From the IMG/VR virus record IMGVR_UViG_3300044644_002430, positions 1 through 39,530 of that record: a DNA stretch of 39,530 nt. One strand, given 5' to 3'. Shown one piece after another: positions 3,577-32,055 of the stretch (positions within the stretch are counted from its first letter, which is position 1; each line of letters begins with the position of its first letter). The position numbers and the translations under genes are program-made. This DNA comes from a virus. Under the pieces are notes generated by a model. It was not told where the DNA came from. It did not search any database and was given only the letters and a program-made list of their open reading frames with translations.

Positions 3577-3584
3577 TATTTATT
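3577..3584 (-). promoter_or_regulatory. Late-type promoter AATAAATA
   Basis: Minus-strand AATAAATA followed by 5 nt (ACTTT) and the ATG of the 91-aa gene. It has the same geometry as the clear late promoters at 19382, 23467, 26547 and 32048. It overlaps the last codons of the polymerase gene. Confidence 0.5.
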
Positions 3585-6132
3585 CCTCAGAAAACAAATC
3601 AAATAAATCTGTTTGAACTTCTTTACCTATGACTGGAAGTTGCCAACCAATAGCTTCATATAACCTTTCTGTTGGTTGAGAAACTAATTTGCTAAACATG
3701 CGATCAAAGTCAATTTTTAATAAAAACTCGTCAGGAAGAGTGGCTGGATATGATATTGCATCAATCCCGTATTTGTTTTTAGAACAATATAATTTTTTAA
3801 CTTTTTGTCCTGTTTGGATTGCTTCATAACGGTCGTCAAGTTTTAGTTCTTTAATTAGTAAATTGTATGCAATTGCTCCTTTTACGTGAGATGGTGTTCC
3901 TTTTTTATATTTGTATAAGGATGCTCCTTCTGCATATTTTTCCAAATTGTTAATTGATGTTCTTGCTGCAATATCGTTCGGATCCAATAGCTGAAATTTG
4001 TTATAACTGTCTCTGTATATGTTGTTTGATTGTTTTACATCCTCGGTTAGCAGGGAGGTTTTAATAATGTCTTCAATAAAAGTTTTAACTTTTTTAGGAG
4101 TGGTTGACCTTACAAGTTCAATTCCTGTGTATTTAAACTTATTAACAGAAACCCCTTCTTCGTCTAATACATGCAATATATATCTTTTCTTCTGTAAAAA
4201 AATACCGACATCAGAAATAACCTCTCTCTTGAACACATACCTTGGATCAGTTGAAAACAATTCTTTTCTAGCCCAATTCAAAATTTCTTCATTAACATGC
4301 TTGTCTAACTCGTCCACAATTTGATGAACTTTTGGATTAAGTTGGTCTCCTTCTACAAGCGGAATGTCGAGAGCAGCTAGCACAGGAGCTATTGACACAT
4401 ACAAACTATCAGTATCTCCGTATTTTGTAATCGATTTTTCAACTCCGTACTTGTTTTTTACAAAATTATCCAAAATGTAACCCCCAGCTTTTGACACGTT
4501 TTGTCCAGTTATTGTAATAGACATCGCATGATCAATATCCATTAACGAAGAGTGTTTGTTTGCAAAAGTTCCGTAAATTGAATTGAGTAAGATTTTTAAT
4601 GTATATTGAAGTGTGTTATAATAAGTTAGCTTAAGATCGGTTTGTTTGTCTTTTTTGCCTGTTTTTTTAAGTTTTAAAAGTTCGTTTTTTGTATCCACGC
4701 GCTCTTTGTAAATTTCGTCAATCAAATTTGGAATAACTCCTTTGGATTTTTGAGAATACAACACCCCAGCTTTTGATAGGGATACGTTTTCTTTTACTAA
4801 AAACTCTTTCATTGCTTGAGTATTCAGCGTATGTAATTTGCCGTTAATCAACCTAACAGTAACTTCTGGTGTGACTCCAAATTCTCCAGTAACAATTTTT
4901 CCTAGCTTTGTTTCAGGGGAAATGTTGAGAGTAATAATCGTGTTTGGGTACAGAGAATTGACGTCAAAACTCACAATTGCTTTTTGTATTCCCTTTTCCG
5001 GATCTCTAACAAATCCTCCTTCGTATGACTCTCTATCCAACTTATCTGGAAAGGTAGGAATAACATAACCTTGTTTATGAGCTTGTATTGCAACAGCACC
5101 TGTAACAATTGCTACTTTACCAAGAGCTGCTTCAAAATTTGTGCAACCTTTGTAGGAAAGCATTCTAGCAATTTCCAAAAATTTTAATTTTTCTTCTAAC
5201 TTAACCAACAAATGAACGTCTTGTATGTTGTAATCCACAAACGTTTTCCAATCAGAGTGAGCAAGCTCCCCAAGACTAACAGCGTTGTATGCAATTTTTC
5301 CCTCTCCCAATTCCAACTCTGATATGTAATTTAAGCTAAATGACTCTTTCTCACCCGGAGAAAATGTTTTATACAAAGCCATATAATCGATAAGAGAAAT
5401 GCCTGATATTGACCATTCTGTCATTTCTCTTCCCATTTCATTAAAAAATTTTCGGCTTCTTATGTTTCCAACTGGAGATAACTGATTAATAAAATCAGCT
5501 CCAAACAACTTAATAAATCTGTTAATAATGTAAGGAAAGTCAAACCCGCTACTGTTCCAACCTGATGCAATATCTGGATAATCCGATTTCCAAAAATCTA
5601 CAAATTGTAAAATAAGATCTTCTTCGGTTTTACAACAATGGTAAATGCATTTGTCTATTGTCGGAGTATATCGCTCTCTCAAACCCCACGTGTGCGTTGC
5701 CATTGTGAGAGTATCGTAAATCGTAATCAAGTTGATTGGAACTGCAGCTTTTTCAGGAGTAGGAAAGGCAGAATCAAAAGTAGTGTCTACCTCAATATCA
5801 AGTAAAAATATTTTTAAAGGAAACTGAGAAAATTTAGGATCACTATTCTGTTCCTTAAACATCTCAATTAAAAATTGCTGCTCCGGCCCTATATTGTGAA
5901 ATATACGTTTATTTGCAGTGCTGTCTACAAATTTGCGTCGTTCGATACTATTCCTGAAAACTTTTTTAGTTAAACTCGTTTTAAAAATAGAAGTAGCATC
6001 AGTGGATCCTTCTTTCTCTAAAAACAAATATGGTCGAAAGGGAATTTCAGTGTCAATTCGGTCTCCGTTTTCTGTCCATGTACGGAGAAATACAGATTCA
6101 TTAAAAGGGCTATAAGTCGCAGAACGATACAT
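3580..6132 (-). CDS. 43: DNA polymerase, family B (T4 gp43 type)
   Basis: 850 residues, slightly shorter than T4 gp43 (898). The 3'-5' exonuclease motifs are Exo I LLDIEV (D112, E114), Exo II GWNSSGFDF (D198) and Exo III YNIQD (D305). Polymerase motif A is SFDVNSLYP (D390), followed by LNISPET as in T4. Motif B is LLNSIYGTFANK (about 515-526) and motif C is YGDTDSLY (D573, D575). All catalytic residues are present, so it should be an active proofreading replicase. The last residues, QTDLFDLFSEE, resemble the LFDMF peptide by which T4 gp43 docks on the gp45 sliding clamp. No inserted intron or intein is seen. No Shine-Dalgarno sequence is visible at the ATG. Confidence 0.97.
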   Translation of the reverse strand: MYRSATYSPFNESVFLRTWTENGDRIDTEIPFRPYLFLEKEGSTDATSIFKTSLTKKVFRNSIERRKFVDSTANKRIFHNIGPEQQFLIEMFKEQNSDPKFSQFPLKIFLLDIEVDTTFDSAFPTPEKAAVPINLITIYDTLTMATHTWGLRERYTPTIDKCIYHCCKTEEDLILQFVDFWKSDYPDIASGWNSSGFDFPYIINRFIKLFGADFINQLSPVGNIRSRKFFNEMGREMTEWSISGISLIDYMALYKTFSPGEKESFSLNYISELELGEGKIAYNAVSLGELAHSDWKTFVDYNIQDVHLLVKLEEKLKFLEIARMLSYKGCTNFEAALGKVAIVTGAVAIQAHKQGYVIPTFPDKLDRESYEGGFVRDPEKGIQKAIVSFDVNSLYPNTIITLNISPETKLGKIVTGEFGVTPEVTVRLINGKLHTLNTQAMKEFLVKENVSLSKAGVLYSQKSKGVIPNLIDEIYKERVDTKNELLKLKKTGKKDKQTDLKLTYYNTLQYTLKILLNSIYGTFANKHSSLMDIDHAMSITITGQNVSKAGGYILDNFVKNKYGVEKSITKYGDTDSLYVSIAPVLAALDIPLVEGDQLNPKVHQIVDELDKHVNEEILNWARKELFSTDPRYVFKREVISDVGIFLQKKRYILHVLDEEGVSVNKFKYTGIELVRSTTPKKVKTFIEDIIKTSLLTEDVKQSNNIYRDSYNKFQLLDPNDIAARTSINNLEKYAEGASLYKYKKGTPSHVKGAIAYNLLIKELKLDDRYEAIQTGQKVKKLYCSKNKYGIDAISYPATLPDEFLLKIDFDRMFSKLVSQPTERLYEAIGWQLPVIGKEVQTDLFDLFSEE

Positions 6133-6163
6133 AATGATATCATCATGTGTTTGATCGTGGACG

Positions 6164-7387
6164 TCAACTGTTTTTTAAGTATTTTCTTTCAGGAGATCCG
6201 TATGGCGTAAAATACACTTCGTGAAATTTCATTAAATTAGGCTCATCATCAAGCCAAAATTTTTCTGAATGTGTTCTTGCTTTTTTACAATGATCTGCAT
6301 ACACGCTTTGGTTCTTTAGTACTGTTTTTAAACAGTCAATAAATTCGTTTCCGTTTTTGTATTTTAAAGAAGCATCTTTGTATGTAACCATGTCCGGACA
6401 TACGCACGGTAAGCCTAGAGCTCCAGCCTCAATAAGTTTTATGTTTGATTTGCATCTGTTGAACGTGTTGTCTTGTAAAGCAGCAAAAGTTACTTGAGCT
6501 CCAGAGTTGGCCATAGCTTGTGGGAAATCAGGAAGAGGTACCCAATGAGTAAATTTCATTTCTCCTCTATCGATATAAGATTTTAATGGCAGAGGAAACG
6601 AACCATAAAAGTGCCATTGAAAATCTTTTCTAGTTTTAATAATGTGAGGCACTACCATTTCAAAATCATCTTGTTGGTTAACTCTATTGGCTACGTCAAC
6701 ATGAGTACCTGAAGCAAAAATAGCAACAATTGGTTTCTTTTTATTCTTATCAAATTTTTTAACAAGGTCTCCCAAATTATAATAGCGATCAAACCACCAC
6801 TTCATCAAGTAATTAGGAACTGTTGTTACATTTTTGAATCCTGTTTTGTTGATCAAATAGTCTCTAAAATAATCGCACGTAACAGTAATTTCATCCATCA
6901 TGTGCATAATATCCATGATGGAGTTGTATATGTCATCTGATACAAAAGCATCTCTATTACGATTATACAAAGGAATATCTTCTCTAAAAACTACGTCATC
7001 TACTTCGTAAATTAACTTGGTCTTAAGTTGAGTAGAAATCTCTTTCAAAAATGTTACAAATTGCTTTTGCTGAGGAGTAGCTTGTCGTTGTACTTTTACT
7101 GCTTGCACGGTTTGATAAAACCGTGGATCTAAAATCATTGCTGTGGATTCAACTATTACAGCCTTTTGATGTAAATTTAAAAGCAAGTTTGGAGCCATGC
7201 ATCTATAATACCCACAACCTCCATAATCAGCTAGATAAGTTAAAGCTCGTTTAAGTCCTTCTCCTGGTATTTCTGGGGGAGGAACATTGCGTTGCGGAGG
7301 AATATATGTTTGAGCAGGCAAACCAACGGGGAGTCCGTGTGGTGCCCCATGAACGTTCTGAATCCCCATGCGAATTGGTGTGTACAT
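6164..7387 (-). CDS. Glycosyltransferase, GT-B fold (GT4-like)
   Basis: 407 residues. The proline-rich N terminus (about 10-45) is followed by YRCMAPNLLL and KLIYEVDDVVF in the first Rossmann-like domain. The second domain holds the family pattern KLIEAGALGLPCVCPD near residue 330, which supplies the sugar-nucleotide-binding acidic residue of retaining GT-B enzymes. Similar proteins with the YRCxxP start occur in T4-like marine phages. Donor and acceptor are unknown. It sits between gp43 and gp46, outside the main glycosyltransferase cassette at 9935-15531. TTTAAATA lies 6 nt before the ATG, so it may be late-expressed. Confidence 0.82.
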   Translation of the reverse strand: MYTPIRMGIQNVHGAPHGLPVGLPAQTYIPPQRNVPPPEIPGEGLKRALTYLADYGGCGYYRCMAPNLLLNLHQKAVIVESTAMILDPRFYQTVQAVKVQRQATPQQKQFVTFLKEISTQLKTKLIYEVDDVVFREDIPLYNRNRDAFVSDDIYNSIMDIMHMMDEITVTCDYFRDYLINKTGFKNVTTVPNYLMKWWFDRYYNLGDLVKKFDKNKKKPIVAIFASGTHVDVANRVNQQDDFEMVVPHIIKTRKDFQWHFYGSFPLPLKSYIDRGEMKFTHWVPLPDFPQAMANSGAQVTFAALQDNTFNRCKSNIKLIEAGALGLPCVCPDMVTYKDASLKYKNGNEFIDCLKTVLKNQSVYADHCKKARTHSEKFWLDDEPNLMKFHEVYFTPYGSPERKYLKNS

Positions 7388-7393: not shown

Positions 7394-7401
7394 TATTTAA
7401 A
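7394..7401 (-). promoter_or_regulatory. Weak late-promoter-like TTTAAATA
   Basis: Minus-strand TTTAAATA followed by 6 nt (CAAATT) and the ATG at 7385-7387. It departs from the main set by spacing (6 instead of 5) and by the second base. A TCTAAATA with a 6-nt spacer precedes the ATG at 21074, so the 6-nt form may be a second class or chance. Confidence 0.25.
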
Positions 7402-13189: not shown

Positions 13190-13935
13190 TTGTATTGTTT
13201 AAAGTGCTTGTATCCTCCTGATTTATATGGCTCGTTGTTCCACTTTGAGGCAAGTAAGTCGCCTTGCTCATTCATGTTTTTAGGAGTATATTTTAACCGA
13301 TCTTCTGCGTATTTGTTGGAATGACCCGATTGGTGTTTAACTCGAGCTCCTGTATGAACTCCGTGTAAAAGTCCGCAACGTTCTAATGACATTGCGTAGT
13401 CATTATCTTGATAAAAGAAGTAAAATTTTTCGTCTAAATAGCCAATTCTTTCAAATACTGAACGGCGACACGCAAATATGCATCCAAACATATGTAATGA
13501 AACTTCGTAACCGTGATACAATTTACTTTCTGAAGGAAGATACATAGAAGTGTGTCTGTGCCACTCTCTGTCAATTGGTGAAATTGAATGTATTTCTTGA
13601 TTGGTTTGAAATTCTTTTAATAGAGTTTGCAAACAATTTGGCTGAATTAACAAATCGTTATTCGGTCCGATGATATACTGAGCTGTGCACTCAGATAAAG
13701 CTATATTGTAAAACTTATTGTAATTAAATTGTTCGTTAGGCTTAATAAGTTTTACCTTTTCTTGTTTGTAATCCCGATCGAAGTTAGGATTTGTCTCAAC
13801 AATGTAAATTTTATTCACTAAATCATCAGCCGTATCAATATACGAATCTACGCAAGACTTAGTTGTTTGAAACGTTTGTTCGTCCACAGCAAGGGACAAA
13901 ATTATTACATCAAATTTATTATTGACAATTGACAT
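13186..13935 (-). CDS. Glycosyltransferase, GT2-like (GT-A fold)
   Basis: 249 residues. The N-terminal strand FDVIILSLAVDE and the later strand KIYIVETNPN resemble a GT-A Rossmann start. YIIGPNNDLLIQPNCLQTLL (about 86-105) occupies the place of the DxD metal site of GT2 enzymes (here NND). MFGCIFACRRSVFERIGYLDEKFYFFYQDNDYAMSLERCG contains the GYLDExFFxxxxDxD acceptor motif of rhamnosyl- and galactosyltransferase-like GT2 proteins. It overlaps the next upstream gene by 17 nt and the downstream gene by 4 nt. Inverting sugar transfer is inferred from family; donor unknown. Confidence 0.82.
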   Translation of the reverse strand: MSIVNNKFDVIILSLAVDEQTFQTTKSCVDSYIDTADDLVNKIYIVETNPNFDRDYKQEKVKLIKPNEQFNYNKFYNIALSECTAQYIIGPNNDLLIQPNCLQTLLKEFQTNQEIHSISPIDREWHRHTSMYLPSESKLYHGYEVSLHMFGCIFACRRSVFERIGYLDEKFYFFYQDNDYAMSLERCGLLHGVHTGARVKHQSGHSNKYAEDRLKYTPKNMNEQGDLLASKWNNEPYKSGGYKHFKQYK

Positions 13936-14692
13936 ATAGGTAATTTTCTATTTGTTTAATGACATCATACTGATGAAGAACGTAAGGAATATCATCGTTA
14001 ATTGATATTTGTTCTGCTATGTTAACTCTCGAGTTGGCTAAATGAGCTAAATTTGCTACTTCATTATTTTTTAAAATGTTATATCTTGGTGAATCAAAGT
14101 AGACGACTTTGTTGAGGGATGCTTGATCAATGTTTTGGTAGTTCCCGATCCGTGAAATAATTTGAGTCATATCATTGCACATTTCTTTTAATAATTCAAC
14201 GCAACTTTCTCTTCTTCCAAAGATTGTTCCTCCATTTAAAATTTGATAACGCTTGAGTAAATTAAAAATATCTTGGTTGTAGCATAACTTAACCCAAGTT
14301 GTATTTGTTTCACAATTACCAATATATTCATTTTCTGCAGTTACATAAGGCTTAGAATTGACAACCAACTCAAAAGGATTTTTCTGAAAGTACAAATCAG
14401 TAAAGTCGCACAAATACACATTTGATGCTGTACAAAAGTGTTTGGTATACAAATAAAAATAAATCACCTTTAAAGTATAAGGTGAAATAGAATTTTGGAT
14501 CTTGTATTTTTCGCTCAGTTCTTTAGAATCGATTAAATTAACGTGGTTGTCTTTTAAAAATTCAGTCAATTCTTTTGTAAGACCAGAAGCAATTACTGTA
14601 ACCGTTTTAGAAAACTTTTTTGCGCTATTTACAAAAACTTTGATGCCAGGACTTAAGTTATAACCTTGTCCATATGTAACAATCTCGTTCAT
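13919..14692 (-). CDS. Glycosyltransferase-like protein (GT-A, DUF-type)
   Basis: 257 residues. The segment ASNVYLCDFTDLYFQKNPFE (about 92-111) has the D-x-x-D form and hydrophobic flank of GT-A proteins of the nucleotide-diphospho-sugar transferase group (GT8- or GT77-like). GGTIFGRRESCVELLKEMC and NIDQASLNKVVY later in the chain are usual for these, the first being the acceptor loop and the second a conserved DQ motif. It overlaps its upstream and downstream neighbours (4 and 17 nt), so it belongs to the cassette. Precise family and substrate cannot be read from the sequence. Confidence 0.68.
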   Translation of the reverse strand: MNEIVTYGQGYNLSPGIKVFVNSAKKFSKTVTVIASGLTKELTEFLKDNHVNLIDSKELSEKYKIQNSISPYTLKVIYFYLYTKHFCTASNVYLCDFTDLYFQKNPFELVVNSKPYVTAENEYIGNCETNTTWVKLCYNQDIFNLLKRYQILNGGTIFGRRESCVELLKEMCNDMTQIISRIGNYQNIDQASLNKVVYFDSPRYNILKNNEVANLAHLANSRVNIAEQISINDDIPYVLHQYDVIKQIENYLYVNCQ

Positions 14693-15531
14693 TTGGTTTT
14701 TAATTTTTTTAAAATGTTTAATACTTGTTGCTCAGTATGAGTGGGAGGTTGATTTGGATAATGTCCGTGTTTGTTTTTGTATATTTCTCTGCCTTGCATC
14801 ACTCGCTGCATCCACTTTTCTTTGTCTTTAGCTATTGATGAATTTTCAATAGCTCCAGGAGCTTCTTCAATTAATTCATGACTATTTGCTAAATCAGCAA
14901 ACCACCAAAACGGTGGATGAAATCCTGCTTTAATAATTTGATATGTGTGATCTACGTGCTCCCAGCACTTGTCGTATTCTTCCGGAAAGTAACCAACTTG
15001 CTTAATAACTTCGTCAGTAAAAAACGAGAACATTGCAACAGTGTGTTCATACAAAGCTATTTTGCAGACTTTGTAATCTACAATAAGTTTTGGGTTTGGC
15101 TTTGTTTTTTCGTCAAGCAAGTGTCTGTTGTGTAGGTCAGGGTTGGGGATTGTTTGAACTCGATTAAAAGGAGATCCAGGCCCGTAATTAAAATGTTGAA
15201 TGCCGCTTACCTTGCAAGCTTCAACGTATTGAGCAAAAACAGTTTTATCTTTTATTACAATATCATCTTCCAAAACAAAAACATATTTGCATTGTTTATT
15301 TAACAAACGATCTAGTGCTTTGTTTTTTGATTTTGCTACACCTAAATTTGTTTTGTTGTTAATCCATTCACCTTTAGAAAGGCTAACTTCATTAACAGAA
15401 TCTCCATCATTAACTACCACTAATTCGTCGATGTCAAAATGACATTTTACTAAAGAATCTAGTAAACTCCGAAGGTAATCAATCCTATTGCAGGTAATGA
15501 TCCCAACCCCAATTTTTTCTTTATTATTCAT
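14689..15531 (-). CDS. Glycosyltransferase family 2 (GT-A fold)
   Basis: 280 residues. IGVGIITCNRIDYLRSLLDS (about 6-25) and LVVVNDGDS form the UDP-sugar site. NLGVAKSKNKALDRLL is the conserved nucleotide-contact helix, and YVFVLEDDIVI (about 83-93) carries the DxD-type metal motif (EDD). KQVGYFPEEYDKCWEHVDHTYQI has the acceptor-site acidic residues. All hallmarks of an inverting GT2 enzyme are present. Substrate unknown. It is the first gene of the cassette after gp47, overlaps the gp47 3' end by 8 nt, and so is likely co-transcribed with gp47. Confidence 0.87.
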   Translation of the reverse strand: MNNKEKIGVGIITCNRIDYLRSLLDSLVKCHFDIDELVVVNDGDSVNEVSLSKGEWINNKTNLGVAKSKNKALDRLLNKQCKYVFVLEDDIVIKDKTVFAQYVEACKVSGIQHFNYGPGSPFNRVQTIPNPDLHNRHLLDEKTKPNPKLIVDYKVCKIALYEHTVAMFSFFTDEVIKQVGYFPEEYDKCWEHVDHTYQIIKAGFHPPFWWFADLANSHELIEEAPGAIENSSIAKDKEKWMQRVMQGREIYKNKHGHYPNQPPTHTEQQVLNILKKLKTK

Positions 15532-16594
15532 GAACGGTTTGATGAATCTTATACAACTCTAAACATTTATCAAGCACTTCTTTTTTTGTTGCTCTTGTGT
15601 CAACGTGCTCAATAAACTCATGAAATGCTGTCTCAATGTCAATTGATAATTTTTTAACCTCTGCAGTATCCACTTGAGCTGTGTCTAAAATGTCGAACTC
15701 TACTCTAAATTGTAACGGATTGTATTGAGTTAATTTAGAAGTAAGCAGATCTAAAGTTAGTGTGTCTAATTTAGTATCAACATACAAACTAATTATATTG
15801 TTTTTTATGACAGAAGATATGTTTTGGTATTTCTTTTGAAGAATATCTGAGATTTTTAAACGATGGTGTTTTGGAGTAATATTGTTTGCTATAAACTCCA
15901 CATTAAAATTATCAAAGTCTATAATAGAGACACCCTTTTGTTGTTCTCTGTCGCTGAAGTCCATTTCATATGGAGAGCCAAGATACAACACATATTTGTT
16001 TTCATAATCTCTTTTTTCTCTATAATGAAAATGGCCCGATATTACTGCATTAGACAATGCCAATAAATCTGTAGAATTGTCTCCTTTATCACAAATTTTA
16101 GTAGTGTTCATTTTAAAATTCATTAATTCAAAATGTCCTACAATCATATCTACTTTTGTTAGTTCCTTTAAATCAGTTTTCCATGGACAAAAAGCCACAG
16201 TTTTATCTCCAAAAGATACAATTGTAGGTTTAGAATAAACGTGCACATTAGGCCGTTCCAAGATTTCTACTGAGTTCACTTCCACTGTTGATGAAAGAAA
16301 TGCATCATGGTTTCCGGGTATAAGATGAATATTGTATTTTCCCAATATGTCAAAAAACTTTTTAGCTACATGCAAAGTGTTGACTCCTATTTCATGTCTG
16401 TCGTGGAACACGTCTCCAGCAAAAATAATGGTATCTAAACATTGTTCTTCCATTACTTTCTTTACCCAATTCGCTAAATCAAGTGAAATATTATGCCACG
16501 TTTGGGAGTTTTGATGAACTCCTAAATGCAAATCAGAAAAAAATAAAATTTTGTTTTGTTTGGGGTTATTGATCAAAAGATTTATAAGCTCCAT
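15524..16594 (-). CDS. 47: Recombination endonuclease nuclease subunit, gp47/SbcD/Mre11 type
   Basis: 356 residues from ATG 16592-16594; an in-frame GTG two codons upstream is possible. The calcineurin-like phosphoesterase motifs are in order: FSDLHLG (I), FAGDVFHDR (II), IPGNHD (III), VGHFEL and SGHFHYR (IV and V). All metal ligands are present, so it should be an active nuclease. It pairs with gp46 for end resection in recombination-dependent replication. It follows gp55 with a small overlap (T4 also has 55 before 47) but its usual partner 46 is displaced downstream by the glycan cassette. Confidence 0.93.
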   Translation of the reverse strand: MELINLLINNPKQNKILFFSDLHLGVHQNSQTWHNISLDLANWVKKVMEEQCLDTIIFAGDVFHDRHEIGVNTLHVAKKFFDILGKYNIHLIPGNHDAFLSSTVEVNSVEILERPNVHVYSKPTIVSFGDKTVAFCPWKTDLKELTKVDMIVGHFELMNFKMNTTKICDKGDNSTDLLALSNAVISGHFHYREKRDYENKYVLYLGSPYEMDFSDREQQKGVSIIDFDNFNVEFIANNITPKHHRLKISDILQKKYQNISSVIKNNIISLYVDTKLDTLTLDLLTSKLTQYNPLQFRVEFDILDTAQVDTAEVKKLSIDIETAFHEFIEHVDTRATKKEVLDKCLELYKIHQTVHE

Positions 16595-17066
16595 CGTCAC
16601 TCATTGGGTTGTGGGTGTTTTTCCTAGAAGGTATTTGTCCACTACAAATGTGGTTTTCATACACTTCTTCTTGATACCGTTTAAGAGTTTCAAAATCTTT
16701 TTTAGATTTTTTGATACAATTTTGAAAAGCGTGATAAGCAATTTTTGTAAAATACGAAAAGGGATTGTATCCTGAATTACATTTATATCGTTTTCGTCTC
16801 AAAGCTGTCATCATTTTAATAATAGCATCTCCTTGCATTTCGGTTTTAAAACTATAAGAATAGAAATTTCTAGCTAGTCCCAAGCGAACAGCGATCATTT
16901 GGATCATTTCTGCCAACTTATCGCTTATTATTTCATTACCGTAATATTCTCGAATTAGATTTTCCATTTCTTCGGGATTTATATATACATCTTTTAACTC
17001 TTCTTTAGTTCTCCTAACTCGCTTTACGCGTGCTTTGGATATAGGTTCAATGGTTTGGCTTTTCAT
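16566..17066 (-). CDS. 55: Late-transcription sigma factor gp55
   Basis: 166 residues from ATG 17064-17066; the frame extends to 17105 only from a TTG start. An ordered block runs from LAEMIQMIAVRLGLARNFYSYSFKTEMQGDAI (about 50-81) to NPFSYFTKIAYHAFQNCIKKSKKDFE. It matches the sigma region 2-like part of T4 gp55, including the aromatic NPxxYxTxxxxxAFxxxIKK segment. gp55 replaces host sigma for late genes and recognises TATAAATA without a -35 element. Motifs of that kind occur in this window (19382, 23467, 26547, 32048), so the factor and its sites appear together. The C terminus overlaps the start of gp47 by about 29 nt. T4 also uses gp33 and gp45; neither is seen here. Confidence 0.9.
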   Translation of the reverse strand: MKSQTIEPISKARVKRVRRTKEELKDVYINPEEMENLIREYYGNEIISDKLAEMIQMIAVRLGLARNFYSYSFKTEMQGDAIIKMMTALRRKRYKCNSGYNPFSYFTKIAYHAFQNCIKKSKKDFETLKRYQEEVYENHICSGQIPSRKNTHNPMSDDGAYKSFDQ

Positions 17067-17094
17067 GAATAATGAGAAGTATATACAAGCATTT

Positions 17095-18534
17095 TTATTG
17101 TTCAACTAAATCGTTAATAATTAAAGGAATTTTTTCGGAACTATATAAACGCTTTCTTTCATCAAAATGTTTAAAGCCGTAAGTCAAACACGTATCCGCT
17201 AAATCAAATATAGTCGCAATAGTTTTAGTTTTATGTAAACGCAAACTTCTTCCAATTGACTGAATAATTTTAATTCTAGATTTTCCAATAGAAGCAAAAA
17301 TAATATTGTGCAAATTTTTAATTGAAATACCTGTAGAAAAAATTTTAGATATTGCAATGCACACCACTCCGGTCGTTTCTTCCATTAACGCTCGCATTTT
17401 TTCTCGCTCCTCTATATCTACTGAACCTTGAATAAAATAAATTTGTTTGTCGGTTTTGTCTTTTAACCATTCCAATAAATGCTCTCCGTGAACTATTCGA
17501 TCTACTAGAATGAGAGTATTTGTATCAAGTTTGTTAATAAGTTTAGCTACAATTGAGTTTCTGTATTCATTTGTGTGCAACCATGTAATTTCTTCTTCAT
17601 AACCAGCAGTAGGTTCAGACATTGAAGGTTTAGAAAATTCCGGAATCTCTTTATATTGAATTTGAAGACCTATAACACGAACGTTTGATATAAACTTGTC
17701 CTCTCTTAGTTCAATTGATTTTTTGTGATAAATTATTGGTCCAAAAATGCGATTGATAGACCACACATCGAATTTGTTTTCAGGTAAAGAACCGGTTAAA
17801 CCAAACTTGTGTTGACATTTTAAATCTTTTACCAATTTGGATATTTTTTCGGCAGTTGCTAACTTGTGGACTTCATCACAAAAAATAACATTAAAATCTT
17901 CCAACACTTTAGCATCTTGTTTTTTAGATAAGAGAATTTGGCTATTTGCTATTACAATTTTTGTTTTTGTGTATTCGTTATTTCCAGTCCATTTAGAAAT
18001 ATAATTCTCAGAAATTCCGTAATCAATAAAATCTTTGTAGGTTTGTTGAACAAGCTGAACATCAGGAACTAAAATTAGTACTCTGTAGTTTTTTTCCGCT
18101 ACAGCAGTATTAGCAATTAGTGCTATAGTTAAAGTTTTGCCTGCTGATGTGGGAAGTACAATTACTCCGTGTCCTTTACGCAACGCTTCGGTAGCTGACT
18201 CTATTTGATACTCTCGAGGGTTGAGCAACAACTTTAAAGGAGTCTCAGAAATACTATTAACGTGTTTAATTTTTTGAAACTGTTCTGTAAAATGTATTTG
18301 AAGGGAAGGAAATTTAACTTTTAGTTCTGCAATAATTTGTTCACTAAACGGTAGATCGAAATGACCTTTTGCAGAGATTGCGTATTTGCGGACAGGCATG
18401 TTTCTTCCTAAACGTTTGCGCATAAAAACCAACGCTTTATCTTCGACTGAAAAATGTTCTCTAATTAAATCTAAAGCATCGGACTTAATCAAAGGTTTTC
18501 TAGAAACACTATCAAACTCAAAAGTTACTTGCAT
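17095..18534 (-). CDS. uvsW: DNA/RNA helicase UvsW
   Basis: 479 residues (T4 UvsW is 503). An N-terminal small domain (1-100) precedes the SF2 core. Q-like REYQ lies at 107-110, Walker A is LPTSAGKT (127-134), and motif II is CDEVH (D220, E221). Motif III is GLTGSLPE and motif VI QSIGRSLRLHK lies near 420. The protein unwinds branched recombination intermediates and R-loops and shifts replication to the recombination-dependent mode. It starts at the stop of the UvsY-like gene (ATG overlapping), the same neighbourhood as in T4. Confidence 0.93.
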   Translation of the reverse strand: MQVTFEFDSVSRKPLIKSDALDLIREHFSVEDKALVFMRKRLGRNMPVRKYAISAKGHFDLPFSEQIIAELKVKFPSLQIHFTEQFQKIKHVNSISETPLKLLLNPREYQIESATEALRKGHGVIVLPTSAGKTLTIALIANTAVAEKNYRVLILVPDVQLVQQTYKDFIDYGISENYISKWTGNNEYTKTKIVIANSQILLSKKQDAKVLEDFNVIFCDEVHKLATAEKISKLVKDLKCQHKFGLTGSLPENKFDVWSINRIFGPIIYHKKSIELREDKFISNVRVIGLQIQYKEIPEFSKPSMSEPTAGYEEEITWLHTNEYRNSIVAKLINKLDTNTLILVDRIVHGEHLLEWLKDKTDKQIYFIQGSVDIEEREKMRALMEETTGVVCIAISKIFSTGISIKNLHNIIFASIGKSRIKIIQSIGRSLRLHKTKTIATIFDLADTCLTYGFKHFDERKRLYSSEKIPLIINDLVEQ

Positions 18535-19381: not shown

Positions 19382-19389
19382 TATAAATA
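19382..19389 (+). promoter_or_regulatory. T4-type late promoter TATAAATA
   Basis: A perfect TATAAATA, the T4 late consensus, lies 5 nt (CTTTT) before the ATG at 19395. There is no Shine-Dalgarno sequence between. If transcription starts 6 nt after the last A, as T4 late promoters do, the first base of the mRNA is the A of ATG. Confidence 0.8.
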
Positions 19390-19394: not shown

Positions 19395-19616
19395 ATGAAA
19401 TTTCGAGAAATTGTTGAAAAAGTCCTAAGTGAGGAAGTTATGTCTGGAGGAGAAGGTTCAGCTTTTGGTCCAAATGTTGGGAAGACAGCTTCTGAATTTA
19501 GTGGAGACAATTATGCTCCAGGAGATGCACGCACTCCGAAAAGTTTATATGGAGGAGTTCTGACGCGAGCAGGTATGCGTAAAGGGGAATCCAAAAAAAG
19601 AAAAAAGAAAAAGTAA
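19395..19616 (+). CDS. Small late protein with capsid-targeting-like N terminus
   Basis: 73 residues. The first 14 residues (MKFREIVEKVLSEE) form an amphipathic helix ending in LSE, a form like the L/I-x-E site cut by the T4 prohead protease gp21. A glycine/serine-rich middle (SGGEGSAFGPNVGK) and a very basic tail (KKRKKKK) follow. This layout suggests a DNA-contacting internal head protein, but a small tail or neck protein is possible. Transcription is from the TATAAATA promoter at 19382. The next gene starts 3 nt after the stop. Confidence 0.7.
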   Translation: MKFREIVEKVLSEEVMSGGEGSAFGPNVGKTASEFSGDNYAPGDARTPKSLYGGVLTRAGMRKGESKKRKKKK

Positions 19617-20452: not shown

Positions 20453-21074
20453 GAGAACCATCCTCTTCTCCAAAGCAATTTCCATTTTCTTTAATGTAAA
20501 GCTTCATTTGAGGAATACGCATATCCGGAGGACCTTCTAAACGAATGACTGCTGGACAATCCTCTGAAGGAAAGAAAGCTTTTGTGTTTTTTTCATATGA
20601 ACTAACCAATGAATCAAAAATGTTATCAATTTCTTCTCTAAACGTTTCGTCTGTTTCTCTTCCTTCTCTTGGAGTAATAGGAATTTCTTTTCGAGCGGGA
20701 ATATAAAAAACGAGATCAATGTGCTTTAAAGAAAGAGCAGCAATATCTTTACAATTCATTATAAATTCTGAAGTAAATCCTTCAGTTCCTTTTGCGTAGT
20801 GCCAAAGTGTATAAGCAATATTATCCACTGGACATCTATCAAAAATAACGTGCTTATCATCTGAAGTGCTTGCAAGCTGAACTTCATCAACCAACGCGTT
20901 AAGAATTGCTCTTTGAGACTCTTTGTCTCCTTGCATATTAAGATTAAGGTTTTTTTCCTTAATGATGTCCCTATAAGTTTTTTCAGGCCTTTTATACATT
21001 GGCCATTCTTTAATGAATTGATTAACTAAAGTAGATTTACCTACACTGTGAGCTCCAATTAAAGCAATTTTCAT
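20430..21074 (-). CDS. P-loop NTPase, nucleotide/nucleoside kinase-like (AAA_28)
   Basis: 214 residues. Walker A is GAHSVGKST (7-15). FDRCPVDNIAYTLW (about 78-91) is the DR-type LID/substrate region seen in NadR- and deoxynucleoside-kinase-like P-loop proteins. VFYIPARKEIPITPREGRETDETFREEID (about 128-156) supplies basic lid residues. The likely activity is phosphorylation of a nucleoside, nucleotide or cofactor with ATP; the acceptor is unknown. It lies upstream of a small gap from QueE/QueD on the same strand, so a role in modified-nucleotide supply is possible. Confidence 0.78.
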   Translation of the reverse strand: MKIALIGAHSVGKSTLVNQFIKEWPMYKRPEKTYRDIIKEKNLNLNMQGDKESQRAILNALVDEVQLASTSDDKHVIFDRCPVDNIAYTLWHYAKGTEGFTSEFIMNCKDIAALSLKHIDLVFYIPARKEIPITPREGRETDETFREEIDNIFDSLVSSYEKNTKAFFPSEDCPAVIRLEGPPDMRIPQMKLYIKENGNCFGEEDGSLIDASQV

Positions 21075-21104
21075 TATGTTTATTTAGAGTCGGTTTGAAT
21101 TAAA

Positions 21105-21863
21105 TCAAACCTTTAAAGCTTTATCCCAGACCAGGAGATGCAAACGAGGACTAAAATTAACATGCATTGCTTTAGCGTATTCGACTACAGCTTGGGCTTT
21201 TTCGATGTGTTCTTGTCTAGATCCACAACAAGGCATGAACCAAACTCGTTGAAGAGGTACGTTAACCCCTTCATAATCATCTACATATTTTCTCCAAATT
21301 TCCTCAATATCTCTGTCAGAATTAATAACAAACTTGAAACCGGAGTTATGATCTACATGCCATCTCAACACATCTGGCTTGTAAGTCTTTTCTTCAGGGT
21401 CTCCGTTAGTCGTTAGTTTAGGAGATGTAGTAAAAGTAGCACAAAAATCTGTTACCCAACGTTCATCAGGAATAAGAGTAGCATTTGTTTCAAAATCAAT
21501 TCTTGGATTAAACTGATAACGCTCATTAAAAGCTTCCATGAATTTGAGAAGCTGTTTCTGTTGAATAAAAGGTTCTCCTCCAGTCAATTTAAATATAGCC
21601 CGATTACGAAGATGTTCAATATAATTCTTTTCTTCCATTAATTCAAAAATTTCCTCGAATGTCATTTTGTTCTTAACGGACCAAGAAATAAACGAATCAC
21701 ATCCATTAGGACTATCAGCAGAAGCGAACCCTTTGCAAGTCAAATTGCACATCGACATACGCATGAATACAGAAGGCTGTCCTACATATTCTCCTTCTCC
21801 TTCTACGGTATAAAAAACTTTATCGTCAGACAAAAACAGAGTTTCAGTATTAATATCAATCAT
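21105..21863 (-). CDS. queE: 7-carboxy-7-deazaguanine synthase QueE (radical SAM)
   Basis: 252 residues. The start YTVEGEGEYVGQPSVFMRMS is the QueE signature (xxQGEGxxxGxPxxFxR). The iron-sulfur cysteines are C39, C43 and C55, a CX3CX11C spacing wider than the usual radical SAM CX3CX2C because of a GFASADSPNG insert. LTGGEP (93-98) is the SAM-binding GGE motif. It converts 6-carboxytetrahydropterin to 7-carboxy-7-deazaguanine. That is the step after QueD, which lies next to it. The pathway leads to preQ0 and then to queuosine in tRNA or to 7-deazaguanine in phage DNA. No QueC, FolE or Dpd gene is in the window. Confidence 0.9.
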   Translation of the reverse strand: MIDINTETLFLSDDKVFYTVEGEGEYVGQPSVFMRMSMCNLTCKGFASADSPNGCDSFISWSVKNKMTFEEIFELMEEKNYIEHLRNRAIFKLTGGEPFIQQKQLLKFMEAFNERYQFNPRIDFETNATLIPDERWVTDFCATFTTSPKLTTNGDPEEKTYKPDVLRWHVDHNSGFKFVINSDRDIEEIWRKYVDDYEGVNVPLQRVWFMPCCGSRQEHIEKAQAVVEYAKAMHVNFSPRLHLLVWDKALKV

Positions 21864-21868
21864 AAATT

Positions 21869-22303
21869 TTATTCAGTATAAATTGCGCTGTTCAGTTCAT
21901 GCTCCCAAACTTCAACTTTAATGACCTTGCATCGGTTATCAGTTTGTTTTTTAATATGTTCATTTGCTTTTCTGAAGCACCATTCTGCAGTCTTTTCAAT
22001 GCCAACATCTCCCATAATTCGCAGATCACAACCTCCAGCTTCATGTAGCTGCCCAAAGAGCTTTAACAAAGGATCATCCACAGCAATGCACAAAGTGTGA
22101 TCGAATTGTTGTTGAAGTTCTTGCTTGAGGTCTTTGAGTCCTCCAAAATTAACAACCCAATTGCGTTCGTCTAATTCTCCTTCAAACCAAAATTTAGCTT
22201 TTAATTGATAACCGTGAACTTTGCAGCAGTGGGTATCTGTTGCTCTCCATTGTCTGAAAGCACAAGATCCTAACTCGATTATCTTTGTGGAAATATAACT
22301 CAT
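21869..22303 (-). CDS. queD: QueD-like 6-carboxytetrahydropterin synthase, divergent
   Basis: 144 residues. The catalytic cysteine region reads CCKVHGY: C26-x3-H30 fits the C-x3-H-G-H of QueD, but the third zinc histidine is Tyr32. The N-terminal AAH motif is CAFRQW, so the first zinc ligand is also not in place. FDH (67-69) and VWE near 134 match the catalytic D-H and E. The FRQW/HGY form recurs in phage PTPS-like proteins by recollection, so it may be a phage subfamily with altered metal binding. It makes the QueE substrate from dihydroneopterin triphosphate if active. It overlaps the upstream 91-aa gene by 4 nt and lies 5 nt from queE. Confidence 0.82.
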   Translation of the reverse strand: MSYISTKIIELGSCAFRQWRATDTHCCKVHGYQLKAKFWFEGELDERNWVVNFGGLKDLKQELQQQFDHTLCIAVDDPLLKLFGQLHEAGGCDLRIMGDVGIEKTAEWCFRKANEHIKKQTDNRCKVIKVEVWEHELNSAIYTE

Positions 22304-22605: not shown

Positions 22606-23226
22606 TCAAGCTTTTAGTATTTTACTAACATCCTCTAATAAAAGTCCATTTGAATATGCTTCATCTAAAGTTTTGTATAGTTCATTGACTAACACTTGGA
22701 CCTTGTCTTGGTATTCAATAACTTTTTTGTAATGCTCCATGTCTTCATTTAAGTTGAGCACTTTGTGTTCAAATTCTCCACAAGCTTCGATTAAATCAAT
22801 TTTAGTACCTAAATAACGTTTTAATTTCAATACCGTTCTAGTCATTGGACTAAAAGACGTTTTTTCTTGTTCGGTAACTGGGGTTTTAATTTTATTTCCT
22901 CGCTCGTCTATTATTCCTAGTTTGAAACATTCAAATTCAGAAAATTCTTTTTTGAGTTCTTTTAACAGCACGTTGTGATCCAAAAAGCTTTGTACGTTTT
23001 CTTTAATCATACTGTTATAATTTATACCATGCACATGCAGATCTGCTGTTGGATTTACTTTGCACCCTCTACCATAACTTACTGAGCCGCAATAAGCACA
23101 CTTAGAAGTGTCGTCGCCGTGGTAATGCACTCCATGTGGAGCATATCTACAACCTTTGCCTCTGTTAACAGACGCACAGTATAAACAACGACTTTGTTTC
23201 AAATTATGCTGGTTGGTTGCCTGCAT
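22606..23226 (-). CDS. Tandem zinc-binding repeat protein with coiled-coil tail
   Basis: 206 residues. Two copies of one module lie in the first 70 residues: CLYCASVNRGKGCRYAPHG then HYHG, and CAYCGSVSYGRGCKVNPTA then HVHG. Each holds C-x2-C, a third Cys and an H-x-H, enough for one zinc ion each. The rest (about 75-206) is helical and charged, with heptad-like spacing from 140 to 190. No catalytic motif is seen, so binding of nucleic acid or protein is likely. The start is ATG 23224-23226, overlapping the 3' end of the 23204 gene. Confidence 0.65.
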   Translation of the reverse strand: MQATNQHNLKQSRCLYCASVNRGKGCRYAPHGVHYHGDDTSKCAYCGSVSYGRGCKVNPTADLHVHGINYNSMIKENVQSFLDHNVLLKELKKEFSEFECFKLGIIDERGNKIKTPVTEQEKTSFSPMTRTVLKLKRYLGTKIDLIEACGEFEHKVLNLNEDMEHYKKVIEYQDKVQVLVNELYKTLDEAYSNGLLLEDVSKILKA

Positions 23227-23461
23227 TCTGTTGAGGATTCAACATTTTCAACAAAGCGTCTTTAAATTTTTGGTCATTCATTTTTTGTTGAAGAGCTTTA
23301 AACAACTCTTCGTCGTTTATTTGATTTTGTTGATTTGGTTGAGCAGGAGGAGTTGTTTGAGGAGTTGTTGTAGTTCCAGTAGTAGAAATTGGTTTAGCTG
23401 GAGTTGGCTGAGTTCCACTCATAATAGTCTCACAAAGACTGTCAAATTTTGTTTTTGTCAT
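23204..23461 (-). CDS. Small late protein, Pro/Thr/Gln-rich
   Basis: 85 residues from ATG 23459-23461; a longer frame to 23494 is ignored because CATAAATA sits 5 nt before this ATG. After a short helix (MTKTKFDSLCETIMSG) comes a Pro/Thr/Gln-rich linker (TPAKPISTTGTTTTPQTTPP, about 20-39), then a helix DEELFKALQQKMNDQKFKDALLKML. The layout suits a virion protein with a flexible linker. The function is unknown. The gene is divergent from the 531-residue late gene at 23513, and both have late promoters in the 51-nt gap. Confidence 0.65.
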   Translation of the reverse strand: MTKTKFDSLCETIMSGTQPTPAKPISTTGTTTTPQTTPPAQPNQQNQINDEELFKALQQKMNDQKFKDALLKMLNPQQNAGNQPA

Positions 23462-23466: not shown

Positions 23467-23474
23467 TATTTATG
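23467..23474 (-). promoter_or_regulatory. T4-type late promoter CATAAATA
   Basis: Minus-strand CATAAATA, 5 nt (TATAC) before the ATG at 23461. The gp55-type consensus is (C/T)ATAAATA. Confidence 0.7.
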
Positions 23475-23499: not shown

Positions 23500-23507
23500 A
23501 TTAAATA
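23500..23507 (+). promoter_or_regulatory. Late-type promoter ATTAAATA
   Basis: Plus-strand ATTAAATA, 5 nt (ATCTA) before ATG 23513-23515. It is back to back with the minus-strand late promoter at 23467-23474, leaving 25 nt between the two motifs. Confidence 0.55.
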
Positions 23508-23512: not shown

Positions 23513-25108
23513 ATGATGGATTTTGCAAAGGTTGTTAAGAAACTATTAGCAGAAGCTGACCCCACCGGACCAGCATCTGCTTCTCCCGGAGACTTGCCTA
23601 AAGCAAAGGAGTTTTTAAAGAACAAAAAAAGTAATTTACAAGCAGACTATGTGGTGTTTAAAAATTTCTTAGGAGTTGATGTATTTCCTATGGCTGAATT
23701 TGAAACAATTATTGACAAAACATTCAACCTCGCAATTAGAGACACGAAAGACTTTCAACAAATTCCAAAATTTTTGTCAGCATATCCTTTATTGGACTTG
23801 TTTGCTTCCATTCAAAGAATTTTTATTGATAATCAATCTGACTTAAACAAAGCTAATTCTTTAGCCGAGGGAACATACAACGAATGGAAAAAAAGATTAG
23901 CTAACCTTAAAGGAAGTGCTCCTTTAGACTTTATTGCTACCAACACTTGGGCAACATCAATTAAAGATTATTATCTTTCAAAGCAAACTAAATTCAATGT
24001 AGGAGAATTAAAATACGATGCTTACGGAGCAGTTAGTATTGCTGATGGTATTTATAAATTAATGGCTCAACGAGCAAGTTCGGGATTTAAAAAATTACCG
24101 CCAGAACATTTTACTCCATCAGCTCTTGGTGAAAATGTAAATCCGTTTTTACAAAAAATTTTAGAAACCCCAAAAGCTTATACATCTGGAACTATTCCCT
24201 ATCCGGATAAAAAAATGGAAGCTATTTATGGACAAGAAACTCCTTCAATGATATTGGAAGTAGCTACTCATGCATACAATCTATTTGAACAACAATTAAA
24301 CGAAAAGGTATTAAAATACAGACAAAATCAAAATTATGAAATTAATTCCGGTCTATATGATGCTAAGTCAGACAAGGTTAATCAAGTGGCCAAACAAGAA
24401 GCGTATAAATTTTTTCTAAACAATAAAATTGTTTGGAGTACATACATTAAAAATTTAACAAGTTCAAATGCAGAAGTTCCAAAAGAAGAATCTTACTCTT
24501 TTGAAAATATTTTTGTTAATTTGACCTCGCATGTTCTAAAAGAAGCTTTAAAGTCTCCAATATATACAGCAAAAAGTGGAAATTCTTATGTATTTAGTTT
24601 TAATTTTTTGGATGGTAATGTAACAATTATTGACGCCAAAACTAACAAAACTGTTAAAACCCTGTCCCAAGAAACAATCGGAAAGCTTATAAGAAAATAT
24701 AAAGAAGGAAAAAAGGGAGCTGAATCCATTAACGGTACGGAGCTAATACAACACTTAAATCAACTTTCCTTAGGAAAAACAGATAACTTGGCAAAAAGCG
24801 CAGCTGCTACAGCTGAAAATATTTTACAAGGGGTAGGTTTGGAACAACAAACGCCAGGATCTGGTTCATCTGAGGAGGCATCAAACGTTAACACTCCCTC
24901 TACTTTTGATGAAGGCAAATATAGTTTTGCTGATATTAAAAAATACAAAGACGAAAACAAGTATGCTGAGAACCTTTACCAATCATTAGAGGAATTATCT
25001 AATTATACCAGAAAAGCTTTTGATTGGGAAGCGTTTGGACAAGCTGGAGGTAAGTTTTTAAAAGCGCTTGGAAGCTTAGGATCTCCCCAGGTTGGTGGCA
25101 AGAATTAA
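23513..25108 (+). CDS. Large late protein with capsid-targeting-like N terminus
   Basis: 531 residues from ATG 23513 (a second ATG follows directly). The open frame extends 119 codons upstream but that part reads across the divergent 23204 gene and both promoters. The N terminus MMDFAKVVKKLLAEADPTGPA is an amphipathic helix ending LLAE-A, matching the L-x-E/A site of the T4 prohead protease. The bulk is helical, with no recognisable enzyme motif. The C terminus is rich in Gly/Ser (QQTPGSGSSEE and GSLGSPQVGG). Probable internal head or other structural protein. It ends 33 nt inside the convergent primase gene. Confidence 0.65.
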   Translation: MMDFAKVVKKLLAEADPTGPASASPGDLPKAKEFLKNKKSNLQADYVVFKNFLGVDVFPMAEFETIIDKTFNLAIRDTKDFQQIPKFLSAYPLLDLFASIQRIFIDNQSDLNKANSLAEGTYNEWKKRLANLKGSAPLDFIATNTWATSIKDYYLSKQTKFNVGELKYDAYGAVSIADGIYKLMAQRASSGFKKLPPEHFTPSALGENVNPFLQKILETPKAYTSGTIPYPDKKMEAIYGQETPSMILEVATHAYNLFEQQLNEKVLKYRQNQNYEINSGLYDAKSDKVNQVAKQEAYKFFLNNKIVWSTYIKNLTSSNAEVPKEESYSFENIFVNLTSHVLKEALKSPIYTAKSGNSYVFSFNFLDGNVTIIDAKTNKTVKTLSQETIGKLIRKYKEGKKGAESINGTELIQHLNQLSLGKTDNLAKSAAATAENILQGVGLEQQTPGSGSSEEASNVNTPSTFDEGKYSFADIKKYKDENKYAENLYQSLEELSNYTRKAFDWEAFGQAGGKFLKALGSLGSPQVGGKN

Positions 25109-26139: not shown

Positions 26140-26541
26140 TTATTTTTTAGCAGCGTTAATAATGAAACTTTTGAGGTTTTCGGAAATAGAACGCAACGTC
26201 TCAGCCACTCTTACAATTTCAGAACGAGTTCTGCCAGAAATTCCATCAAAGGGGGTCCCTGGGCGATCTAAGCGAGAAACTATGCTTTGAAGAGAACTTT
26301 CTTCAGTGCCGTTAAGCTTATTAGCAAATTCCTCTAAGTCAGTAATATAGCTTGATATGTTGTTTGATGGAACTACAGGCTGCTGAAAAGGATCCTGCAT
26401 ATCTCCGTCTTCAACAGGAGGTTGTTCAGGCAAAGGAAGTGGCTCTACGTCATCAAAATCTGTTGGGTCAGCAACCTCTGTATTTTCGATTTTGTCTTGT
26501 TCTGCCACAAAAACCTTGTTATATAAATCATCAAACTTCAT
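26140..26541 (-). CDS. Late protein with capsid-targeting-like N terminus
   Basis: 133 residues. MKFDDLYNKVFVAEQDKIEN gives the same N-terminal helix as the 19395 and 23513 products (xKFxxxxxKVxxxE), with VAE as possible cleavage site. A long acidic and proline-rich stretch (about 20-57, e.g. PLPLPEQPPVEDGD) follows, then a helical C-terminal half. Likely a virion or scaffold-associated protein. Transcription is from the CATAAATA at 26547, 5 nt before the ATG. Divergent to the membrane protein gene at 26552. Confidence 0.68.
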   Translation of the reverse strand: MKFDDLYNKVFVAEQDKIENTEVADPTDFDDVEPLPLPEQPPVEDGDMQDPFQQPVVPSNNISSYITDLEEFANKLNGTEESSLQSIVSRLDRPGTPFDGISGRTRSEIVRVAETLRSISENLKSFIINAAKK

Positions 26542-26546: not shown

Positions 26547-26554
26547 TATTTATG
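26547..26554 (-). promoter_or_regulatory. T4-type late promoter CATAAATA
   Basis: Minus-strand CATAAATA, 5 nt (TAATT) before ATG 26539-26541. The last bases of this motif, read on the plus strand, are the ATG (26552-26554) of the divergent membrane protein gene, so promoter and start codon overlap. Confidence 0.7.
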
Positions 26555-28535: not shown

Positions 28536-28545
28536 TTTTAAATTA

Positions 28546-29461: not shown

Positions 29462-29528
29462 ATATTTGATTGTTACAAGGACTACCATACATGAGTTAAA
29501 CGGACAAGACAACAAAAAAGTTTAACGT

Positions 29529-30747: not shown

Positions 30748-30751
30748 ATCT

Positions 30752-30868: not shown

Positions 30869-30869
30869 A

Positions 30870-31484
30870 TTAAAGTATTCCTTTTATTCGTAAATAAGTT
30901 GCTCCTCCTATTGCAGCCAACAAACTAATTATTATAATATTACGTTGAAGTATTGCTAAATCCTTTTCTACTATTTGCTTCTGCATTCTATTAAGATCGA
31001 CAATCATTTGATTAGCATAAGCCTCTTGTTTAGCTAATTCGTTGTCTACTTCTGCTTTAAATTCTAATGTTTGTTTGTAGTCCTTTTTAAGTTGTTCAAA
31101 TGTTTGCTTATCTTTTAATAGCTGTTGATATTCCTCTGTGTTAACGACAACAACAGTATCGTTTTTATACTGTTCTGGAATAACCAGTACTCTTTGTTTG
31201 TTGACTGGTATTGGAGTTTTTGGTTTAGCTTGACTAGCTACAACCGGGATTGTTATATCTTTGAAAACAGAAGATATTTCAATTTTGTTTTTTGGAGGTT
31301 TTACTATACGAGCAGCTTCAGAGGCGTATGAGTTAGCCAAATCTATACGAGCTCGTTCAAAAGAATCTCGAGTAGCATAAACTGCTCTTGACAAAGCTTG
31401 GGATTGCTTCTCGGTATACACTGTGCAAGAAACAAGCAACAGCAAGACTGTTACGCAAATTAATCTAGCAATAGAATGTCTCAT
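30870..31484 (-). CDS. Unimolecular spanin (u-spanin) candidate
   Basis: 204 residues. The N terminus has two basic residues, a hydrophobic core and a lipobox LVSC (C20), so a lipoprotein of the outer membrane is predicted. A proline- and lysine-rich stretch (about 60-100) and a coiled-coil (about 117-165, KDKQTFEQLKKDYKQTLEF) span the periplasm. A C-terminal transmembrane helix (NIIIISLLAAIGGATYL, about 182-198) ends in a short basic tail. Lipid anchor plus C-terminal helix in one chain is the design of T1 gp11-like u-spanins, which fuse inner and outer membranes in the last lysis step. It lies first in the lysis module. Confidence 0.75.
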   Translation of the reverse strand: MRHSIARLICVTVLLLLVSCTVYTEKQSQALSRAVYATRDSFERARIDLANSYASEAARIVKPPKNKIEISSVFKDITIPVVASQAKPKTPIPVNKQRVLVIPEQYKNDTVVVVNTEEYQQLLKDKQTFEQLKKDYKQTLEFKAEVDNELAKQEAYANQMIVDLNRMQKQIVEKDLAILQRNIIIISLLAAIGGATYLRIKGIL

Positions 31485-31516
31485 GCCTATACTTAGGCAA
31501 AAGACAAAAATAAAAA

Positions 31517-31729: not shown

Positions 31730-31730
31730 A

Positions 31731-31931
31731 TTAATAAACGTTAAATTCAGGAACTACAAAATATCCCAGTTGTTCGAGTGCTTTGGAATCTGGGTCTTCA
31801 TTTTCATTCAATGTAAATTGCATGCCAAAATAAGGATCAATTGTACTTTTTATTTGAAATTTAATTGTGTCGTTTTCAGGAGCTGTCAGTTCTGGAAACA
31901 GCATTGTTTGGATGTATGTGTCGTTTGTCAT
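31731..31931 (-). CDS. Hypothetical 66-aa protein
   Basis: Not recognised. Beta-rich pattern (DTIKFQIKSTIDPYFGMQFTL) with an acidic middle (NENEDPDSKALEQLG). It is the first gene of the minus-strand unit leading to the lysis cassette. TATAAT occurs 8 nt before its ATG (AGTATAATACAAATC then ATG) and TTGCTA occurs 15 nt further upstream, so a host-sigma-like promoter is possible at low confidence. Confidence 0.5.
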   Translation of the reverse strand: MTNDTYIQTMLFPELTAPENDTIKFQIKSTIDPYFGMQFTLNENEDPDSKALEQLGYFVVPEFNVY

Positions 31932-32047
31932 GATTTGTATTATACTAAATTTTAAAAATTAGCAACGTTGTTTAGTGTTTGTCTTTATTCTTTATATATT
32001 CTAATATTATCGGTTGGACAGCTCAACTTAAAAAATGGTTTTATTTT

Positions 32048-32055
32048 GATAAATA
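32048..32055 (+). promoter_or_regulatory. Late-type promoter GATAAATA
   Basis: Plus-strand GATAAATA, 5 nt (ATAAC) before ATG 32061-32063. Only the first base departs from the (C/T)ATAAATA set. Confidence 0.65.

Follow-up and report, generated by a model that had tools for sequence, protein, structure and literature searches.

Six genes in a fragment of an uncultured T4-like virus carry a T4-type late box so close to their start codons that one may ask whether their transcripts have a leader at all. In T4, the textbook case of late transcription, the promoters are followed by ordinary leaders. An earlier note on this DNA had read the arrangement as placing the transcription start (+1) on the A of ATG, which would make the late mRNAs leaderless, and had named a translation-initiation signal as the alternative. 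The window, that is, the whole stretch of DNA analysed, is IMG/VR record IMGVR_UViG_3300044644_002430, a viral fragment of 39,530 bases and 34% GC. Its minus strand carries T4-like replication genes for a DnaB-type helicase, UvsX, a family B DNA polymerase, gp46, gp47, UvsW, primase and DNA ligase, while 12 tRNA genes and a tmRNA (tag peptide EAEYIINHADEFLVGCEDEYELAA) lie at 33729-37112(-). Megablast of the first 25 kb of the window against 50,697 phage records gave no match, and the DNA polymerase of the window reaches ~33% identity in its best tblastn matches there, which together mark the window as an uncultured lineage. Relatives are present in IMG/VR at 72 loci, whose DNA polymerases are 38-100% identical to that of the window.

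The window also encodes QueE-/QueD-like, glycosyltransferase-like and GT90-like genes (21105-22303(-), 13919-15531(-) and 34211-35326(+)), with the glycosyltransferase-like genes sitting between gp46 and gp47. The QueE-/QueD-like genes possibly belong to a 7-deazaguanine pathway, and the whole group may possibly have roles in DNA modification or surface sugars.

A fixed spacing between box and start codon

All six octamers of the earlier note were recovered with their strands, positions and an exact spacing of 5 nt to ATG. AATAAATA at 3577..3584(-) precedes ATG 3571 of a 91-aa gene with no assigned function (3296-3571); TATAAATA at 19382..19389(+) precedes ATG 19395 (gene 19395-19616, 73 aa); CATAAATA occurs twice, at 23467..23474(-) before ATG 23461 (gene 23204-23461, 85 aa) and at 26547..26554(-) before ATG 26541 (gene 26140-26541, 133 aa); ATTAAATA at 23500..23507(+) precedes ATG 23513 (gene 23513-25108, 531 aa); and GATAAATA at 32048..32055(+) precedes ATG 32061 of a gene for a Hoc-like/tail Ig-type protein (32061-32462). 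The six ATGs open frames of 73-531 codons. The statement that no Shine-Dalgarno (SD) sequence lies between box and ATG holds for all six spacers; the 3571 site has a GAGG upstream of the box. Three further candidates lie before 31484(-), 7387(-) and 21074(-). The first is a TAAGTA at 31490..31495(-), 5 nt before the ATG of a gene with no assigned function (30870-31484), and is included because TAAGTA is itself enriched at this distance among the relatives; the others are TAAATA boxes 6 nt before ATG, at 7394..7399(-) for a glycosyltransferase gene (6164-7387) and at 21081..21086(-) for a thymidylate kinase gene (20430-21074), the former resting on an offset of 6 being the second peak of the clade.

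Short helical-looking peptides, MKFREIVEKVLSEE, MMDFAKVVKKLLAEAD, MKFDDLYNKVFVAEQD and MTKTKFDSLCETIMSG, form the N termini of four of the six late products (genes 19395-19616(+), 23513-25108(+), 26140-26541(-) and 23204-23461(-)). These peptides resemble the T4 capsid-targeting sequences cleaved by gp21, and the four products may be head-internal proteins.

How much of this spacing could chance supply? The window contains exactly six copies of TAAATANNNNNATG and one copy of the backwards pattern; six of its 39 TAAATA have an ATG at offset 5 (the number of nucleotides between box and start codon), and every other offset has four or fewer. Shuffling the window 400 times under a second-order Markov model gave 1.05 cases at offset 5 on average and 4 at most; none of the shuffles reached six. 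The chance expectation had earlier been put at well under one; it is instead about one, which six still far exceeds. Six at any one offset between 0 and 30 arose in five of the 400 shuffles, so the spacing signal from the window by itself is suggestive, and independent sequence becomes the decisive test. Since the window is a 39.5-kb fragment, the genome-wide spacing scan proposed earlier was run on relatives, with offset 5 fixed from the window beforehand. Across 12 related IMG/VR contigs, read whole and holding 1,421 TAAATA, an ATG follows at offset 5 in 150 cases (P=4.8e-62; the background is 26.2 per offset), with 76 at offset 6 and 37 at offset 7. The distribution is thus far from flat. 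It is also one-sided, with an abrupt edge at 5 and no excess at shorter offsets. Restricting the count to frames of at least 40 codons in the relatives plus the window gives 144, 56 and 28 at offsets 5, 6 and 7, with a background of ~6, and offsets 6-9 as a whole are enriched in the clade. Box variants peak at 5 as well (TAAGTA, 22 vs 1.7; TAATTA, 21 vs 5.3; TTAATA, 23 vs 9). A minor peak at offset 19 comprises 17 frames of mixed sequence that show no initiator pattern, some of them from near-duplicate contigs.

These counts bear directly on the possibility that the arrangement is an accident of an AT-rich genome, or a by-product of upstream UAA stops that fall just before the next ATG. The window does hold one such overlap, as the TAA of the box at 3582-3577 (3577..3584(-)) doubles as the stop codon of the DNA polymerase gene, and among the 144 offset-5 sites there are 25 whose TAA ends a frame of 60 codons or more; the other 119 end no such frame. 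Whole-record counts of TAAATANNNNNATG against the backwards pattern stand at 32 vs 1 in G001 (217 kb), 20 vs 4 in G008, 26 vs 4 in G018 and 29 vs 4 in G019, the last apparently a near-duplicate of G018. With these low control counts, shuffles that never give six at offset 5 and orthologs that keep the offset, we attach almost no probability to accident or by-product, and chance is refuted statistically by the relatives.

The ortholog comparison follows individual genes. The 3571 gene has orthologs with offset 5 in G002/L020, G001/L018 (as TAATTA) and L002, the 19395 gene in G001 and G002 (TAAGTA), and the 23461 gene in G002. The 32061 gene has offset 5 in G002 (TAAGTA) and G005 and offset 6 in G001; the 26541 gene has offset 5 in G002, 6 in G008, 9 and 13 in G001 and 13 in G005; and the 23513 ortholog in G002 has offset 8. 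Offset 5 is thus kept while the letters of the spacer vary, with a few shifts to 6, 7, 8, 9 or 13. In the closest alignments the orthologs match from residue 1 onward, in support of the start codons. The TAAATA-N5-ATG spacing is a clade-wide rule.

The predicted position of +1

The T4 late octamer occupies positions -13 to -6 (PMC1524935; PMC2988020 numbers it alike), which leaves the spacer bases at -5 to -1, so that an offset of 5 would put +1 on the A of ATG; this numbering is borrowed from T4 and E. coli, and the host polymerase of the present clade could start 1-2 nt away. The initiator statistics agree with a T4-like +1, six nucleotides beyond the final A of the box. Of the 139 unique sites at offset 5, 88% have T or C just before ATG, compared with 57% of genes that have no box. 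At offset 7, where the T4 +1 base would be the sixth base after the box, that base is a purine in 27 of 28 sites. Start codons conform as well: ATG and GTG (12 sites) are enriched at offset 5 and TTG (3 sites) is not, which is what a start codon whose first base doubles as +1 would give. The picture at offset 6 looks mixed. Its sixth base is a purine in about half of the sites, which look like 1-nt leaders, and many of the remaining sites look able to start on the A of ATG. Offsets 6-7 thus predict very short leaders. At the far end of the box, T is not conserved at -13, nor is it in other T4-like phages (PMC1524935); in the late promoters of cyanophages T at this position is weak (PMC2984593).

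Could the boxes be gp55 late promoters whose main start lies 2-4 nt away from the predicted base, giving very short leaders or a later start codon? The enrichment of offsets 6-9 and the half-purine sixth base at offset 6 would both fit such a shift. It is nonetheless unlikely, because the exact edge at 5, the pyrimidine before ATG and the offset-7 purine rule all match the T4 +1, the closest ortholog alignments run from residue 1, and the annotated starts of Pelagibacter phage HTVC008M coincide with those predicted.

A serious rival dispenses with the promoter altogether and takes the motif as a translation-initiation signal that lies in the leader of a longer mRNA and provides a Kozak-like, A-rich context such as that of Flavobacterium. 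There, adenines at -3, -6, -12 and -13 help initiation, and the mRNAs of F. johnsoniae are mostly leadered (PMC6847099). This reading accounts for the A that offset 5 places at -6, and the clade has A at -13 in 55% and at -12 in 50% of cases. The clade is moreover SD-poor, with an SD-like 4-mer at 0-13% of its genes vs 57% in T4. The likeness to Flavobacterium, A-rich sequence before ATG in place of an SD, has its bounds, in that the Flavobacterium context is general to well-translated, leadered genes (PMC6847099) whereas the box of the clade is a fixed six-letter element confined to late genes. The distances themselves point away from a translation signal, being one-sided with an edge at 5; sites at offset 7 keep a purine at the T4 +1 base and not an A at -6; and TTG is not used at offset 5. 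For these reasons, and for others drawn from gene classes and from the Pelagibacter phages below, we regard a translation signal as improbable, and the alternative offered in the earlier note is disfavoured.

SD scarcity would suit a Bacteroidota host, an attribution that is suggestive at most. Bacteroidota-type promoters (TTTG-N17-20-TANNTTTG) show no consistent excess over shuffles in the clade. A search for the host through DNA polymerase relatives in GTDB genomes gave none in a first scan, and a second scan added no more than an Anaerolineae MAG with 31% identity. One relative encodes a homolog of ribosomal protein bS21 (G001:C1:216525-216686(+)), as do HTVC008M and Mosig; PMC9976891 describes bS21 as governing anti-SD access in Bacteroidota ribosomes.

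Late genes as targets and a gp55-type sigma factor

If the boxes were late promoters, they should be found at virion genes. Ortholog classes were defined from the genes of Pelagibacter phage Mosig, with prohead protease, portal, tube, sheath, terminase, gp13, gp15 and capsid as the virion set and DNA polymerase, gp44, UvsW, gp46, gp47 and gp55 as the replication set, and were scored for a box at offset 5-8. A box precedes 20 of 36 structural orthologs vs none of 53 replication orthologs (Fisher p 1.8e-10, nominal because the contigs are related). This division within the same genomes argues against a general translation signal. So does the enrichment of boxes at divergent junctions: a divergent neighbour lies upstream of 38% of genes with a box vs 14% of those that have none. 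Back-to-back box pairs are common. In the window, the divergent pair 23461(-)/23513(+) has 29 bp between its TAAATA boxes, and in HTVC008M the gp2/gp4 pair has 4 bp. The extreme form is a palindrome, CATATAAATATTTATATG, in G009 (~38169-38182) and G014 (~38035-38048), in which two divergent boxes overlap and 13 bp separate the opposite ATGs; two leaderless mRNAs are predicted from this one palindrome.

In T4, gene 23 is driven by a strong late promoter of its own. For its counterpart in the clade, the major capsid gene gp23, five contigs were compared (G001, G008, G009, G018, G022), and none has a TAAATA box within 18 nt; transcription may reach the gene from upstream, or a different signal may serve it. 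Some other structural genes have boxes at 10-16 nt. Not every late gene, then, would be leaderless.

The window encodes a candidate reader of the boxes. A gp55-type late sigma factor gene lies at 16566..17105(-) (phrog_234, late sigma transcription factor, E=3.1e-17; gp55 profile, E=8e-13), its longest frame opening at TTG with an ATG at codon 14. It sits between gp47 and UvsW, the same order as in Mosig. A gp55 profile search of six clade records found a single gp55 in every one, and other comparison added further records, such that every large clade record tested carries gp55. The partners are less apparent. Three gp33 query sequences gave no significant match in these incomplete contigs, gp33 being small and fast-evolving; a gp45 profile search of clade records gave a single significant match, a weak one in G001 (E=1.6e-4); and the C-terminal clamp-binding tail of T4 gp55, SPSLDFLYEAND, has no clear counterpart in clade gp55. 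The T4-like mechanism is thus matched only in part.

Taken with the T4 numbering and the spacing and purine patterns, the late-gene specificity and the gp55 gene support the earlier placement of +1 on the A of ATG. We consider it very probable that the boxes are gp55-dependent late promoters that make late mRNAs with no leader or with one of 1-2 nt. TAAATA would act as the -10-like element of a T4-type late promoter, and gp55, the sigma factor that the phage itself encodes, would read it. Many boxes of the clade are placed right at the start codon; transcription from them would begin on its first base (A, sometimes G) or 1-2 nt before, the resulting mRNAs would be leaderless or nearly so, and the ribosome would start on a 5′-terminal AUG with neither leader nor SD.

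Relation to T4, cyanophages and Pelagibacter phages

The clade shares with the gp55/gp33/gp45 system of T4 a TATAAATA-type box, its own gp55, virion-gene targets, boxes on both strands and the lack of a visible -35 element. It differs in where the box stands. In T4 the octamer stands about 12-29 nt ahead of ATG and never at 5, so that a leader with an SD fits in between, whereas the excess in the clade falls mostly at 5-7; in a direct count, none of 65 ATAAATA in T4 has an ATG-started frame at offset 5. This supports the earlier suggestion of a design unlike that of T4. Cyanophages S-PM2, Syn9 and P-HM1 (NATAAATA) have the box family in common with the clade, yet P-HM1 boxes stand mostly 19-25 nt before ATG. 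The spacing scan found no offset-5 excess in KVP40, Syn9, S-SKS1 or phiM12, and the RM378 record has no TAAATANNNNNATG.

The two Pelagibacter phages HTVC008M and Mosig, by contrast with these, share with the clade a sharp peak at exactly 5, with 12 and 7 offset-5 frames, respectively, vs roughly 1-2 per other offset. All 12 sites in HTVC008M are deposited CDS starts, among them the ATGs at 18943(+), 18916(-), 19456(+), 31132(+) and 75830(+), and its box genes include those for the DNA end protector, head completion, baseplate, tape-measure and tail-completion proteins and CsgF. Unlike the clade, these phages have only part of their boxes at 5, with a second class at 16-30 nt, and 47% of their genes have an SD-like 4-mer. 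That the same offset recurs in SD-using genomes again speaks against a translation signal. In the DNA polymerase comparison HTVC008M and Mosig group with a cyanophage, apart from the clade of the window, which implies that the start-codon-fused box arose twice or was lost. Late-promoter prediction in pelagimyophages has been reported as unsuccessful (PMC7029224), and fused boxes may help explain why. A published pelagiphage transcriptome covers HTVC022P and HTVC027P, not HTVC008M (PMC12753301).

Leaderless genes as such have a bacterial precedent. In Actinobacteria, Deinococcus-Thermus and other groups, TA-led leaderless genes have a -10 box ~10-12 bp before a start codon that is also the transcript start (PMC3160421). 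Those genes use a housekeeping-type TANNNT box, whereas the phage sigma box of the clade would limit the design to one temporal class of genes. Among open-access papers, a search turned up no account of T4-type late genes that are leaderless. Judged from sequence, the start-codon-fused late box is a novel form of the T4 late system.

Because the box is locked to the start codon, it offers a sequence-only handle on transcription starts and late start codons in many uncultured T4-like contigs, and HTVC008M with its cultured host, HTCC1062, makes the leaderless reading directly testable. On balance, we favour the broader view that leaderless gp55 promoters serve much of the late regulon of the clade and, in Pelagibacter T4-like phages, a portion of it, having arisen at least twice or been lost in cyanophages, and that the early-to-late switch would thereby also switch how ribosomes initiate. 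The question this raises is whether part of virion synthesis has been moved to leaderless translation, in SD-poor genomes and SD-using Pelagibacter phages alike.
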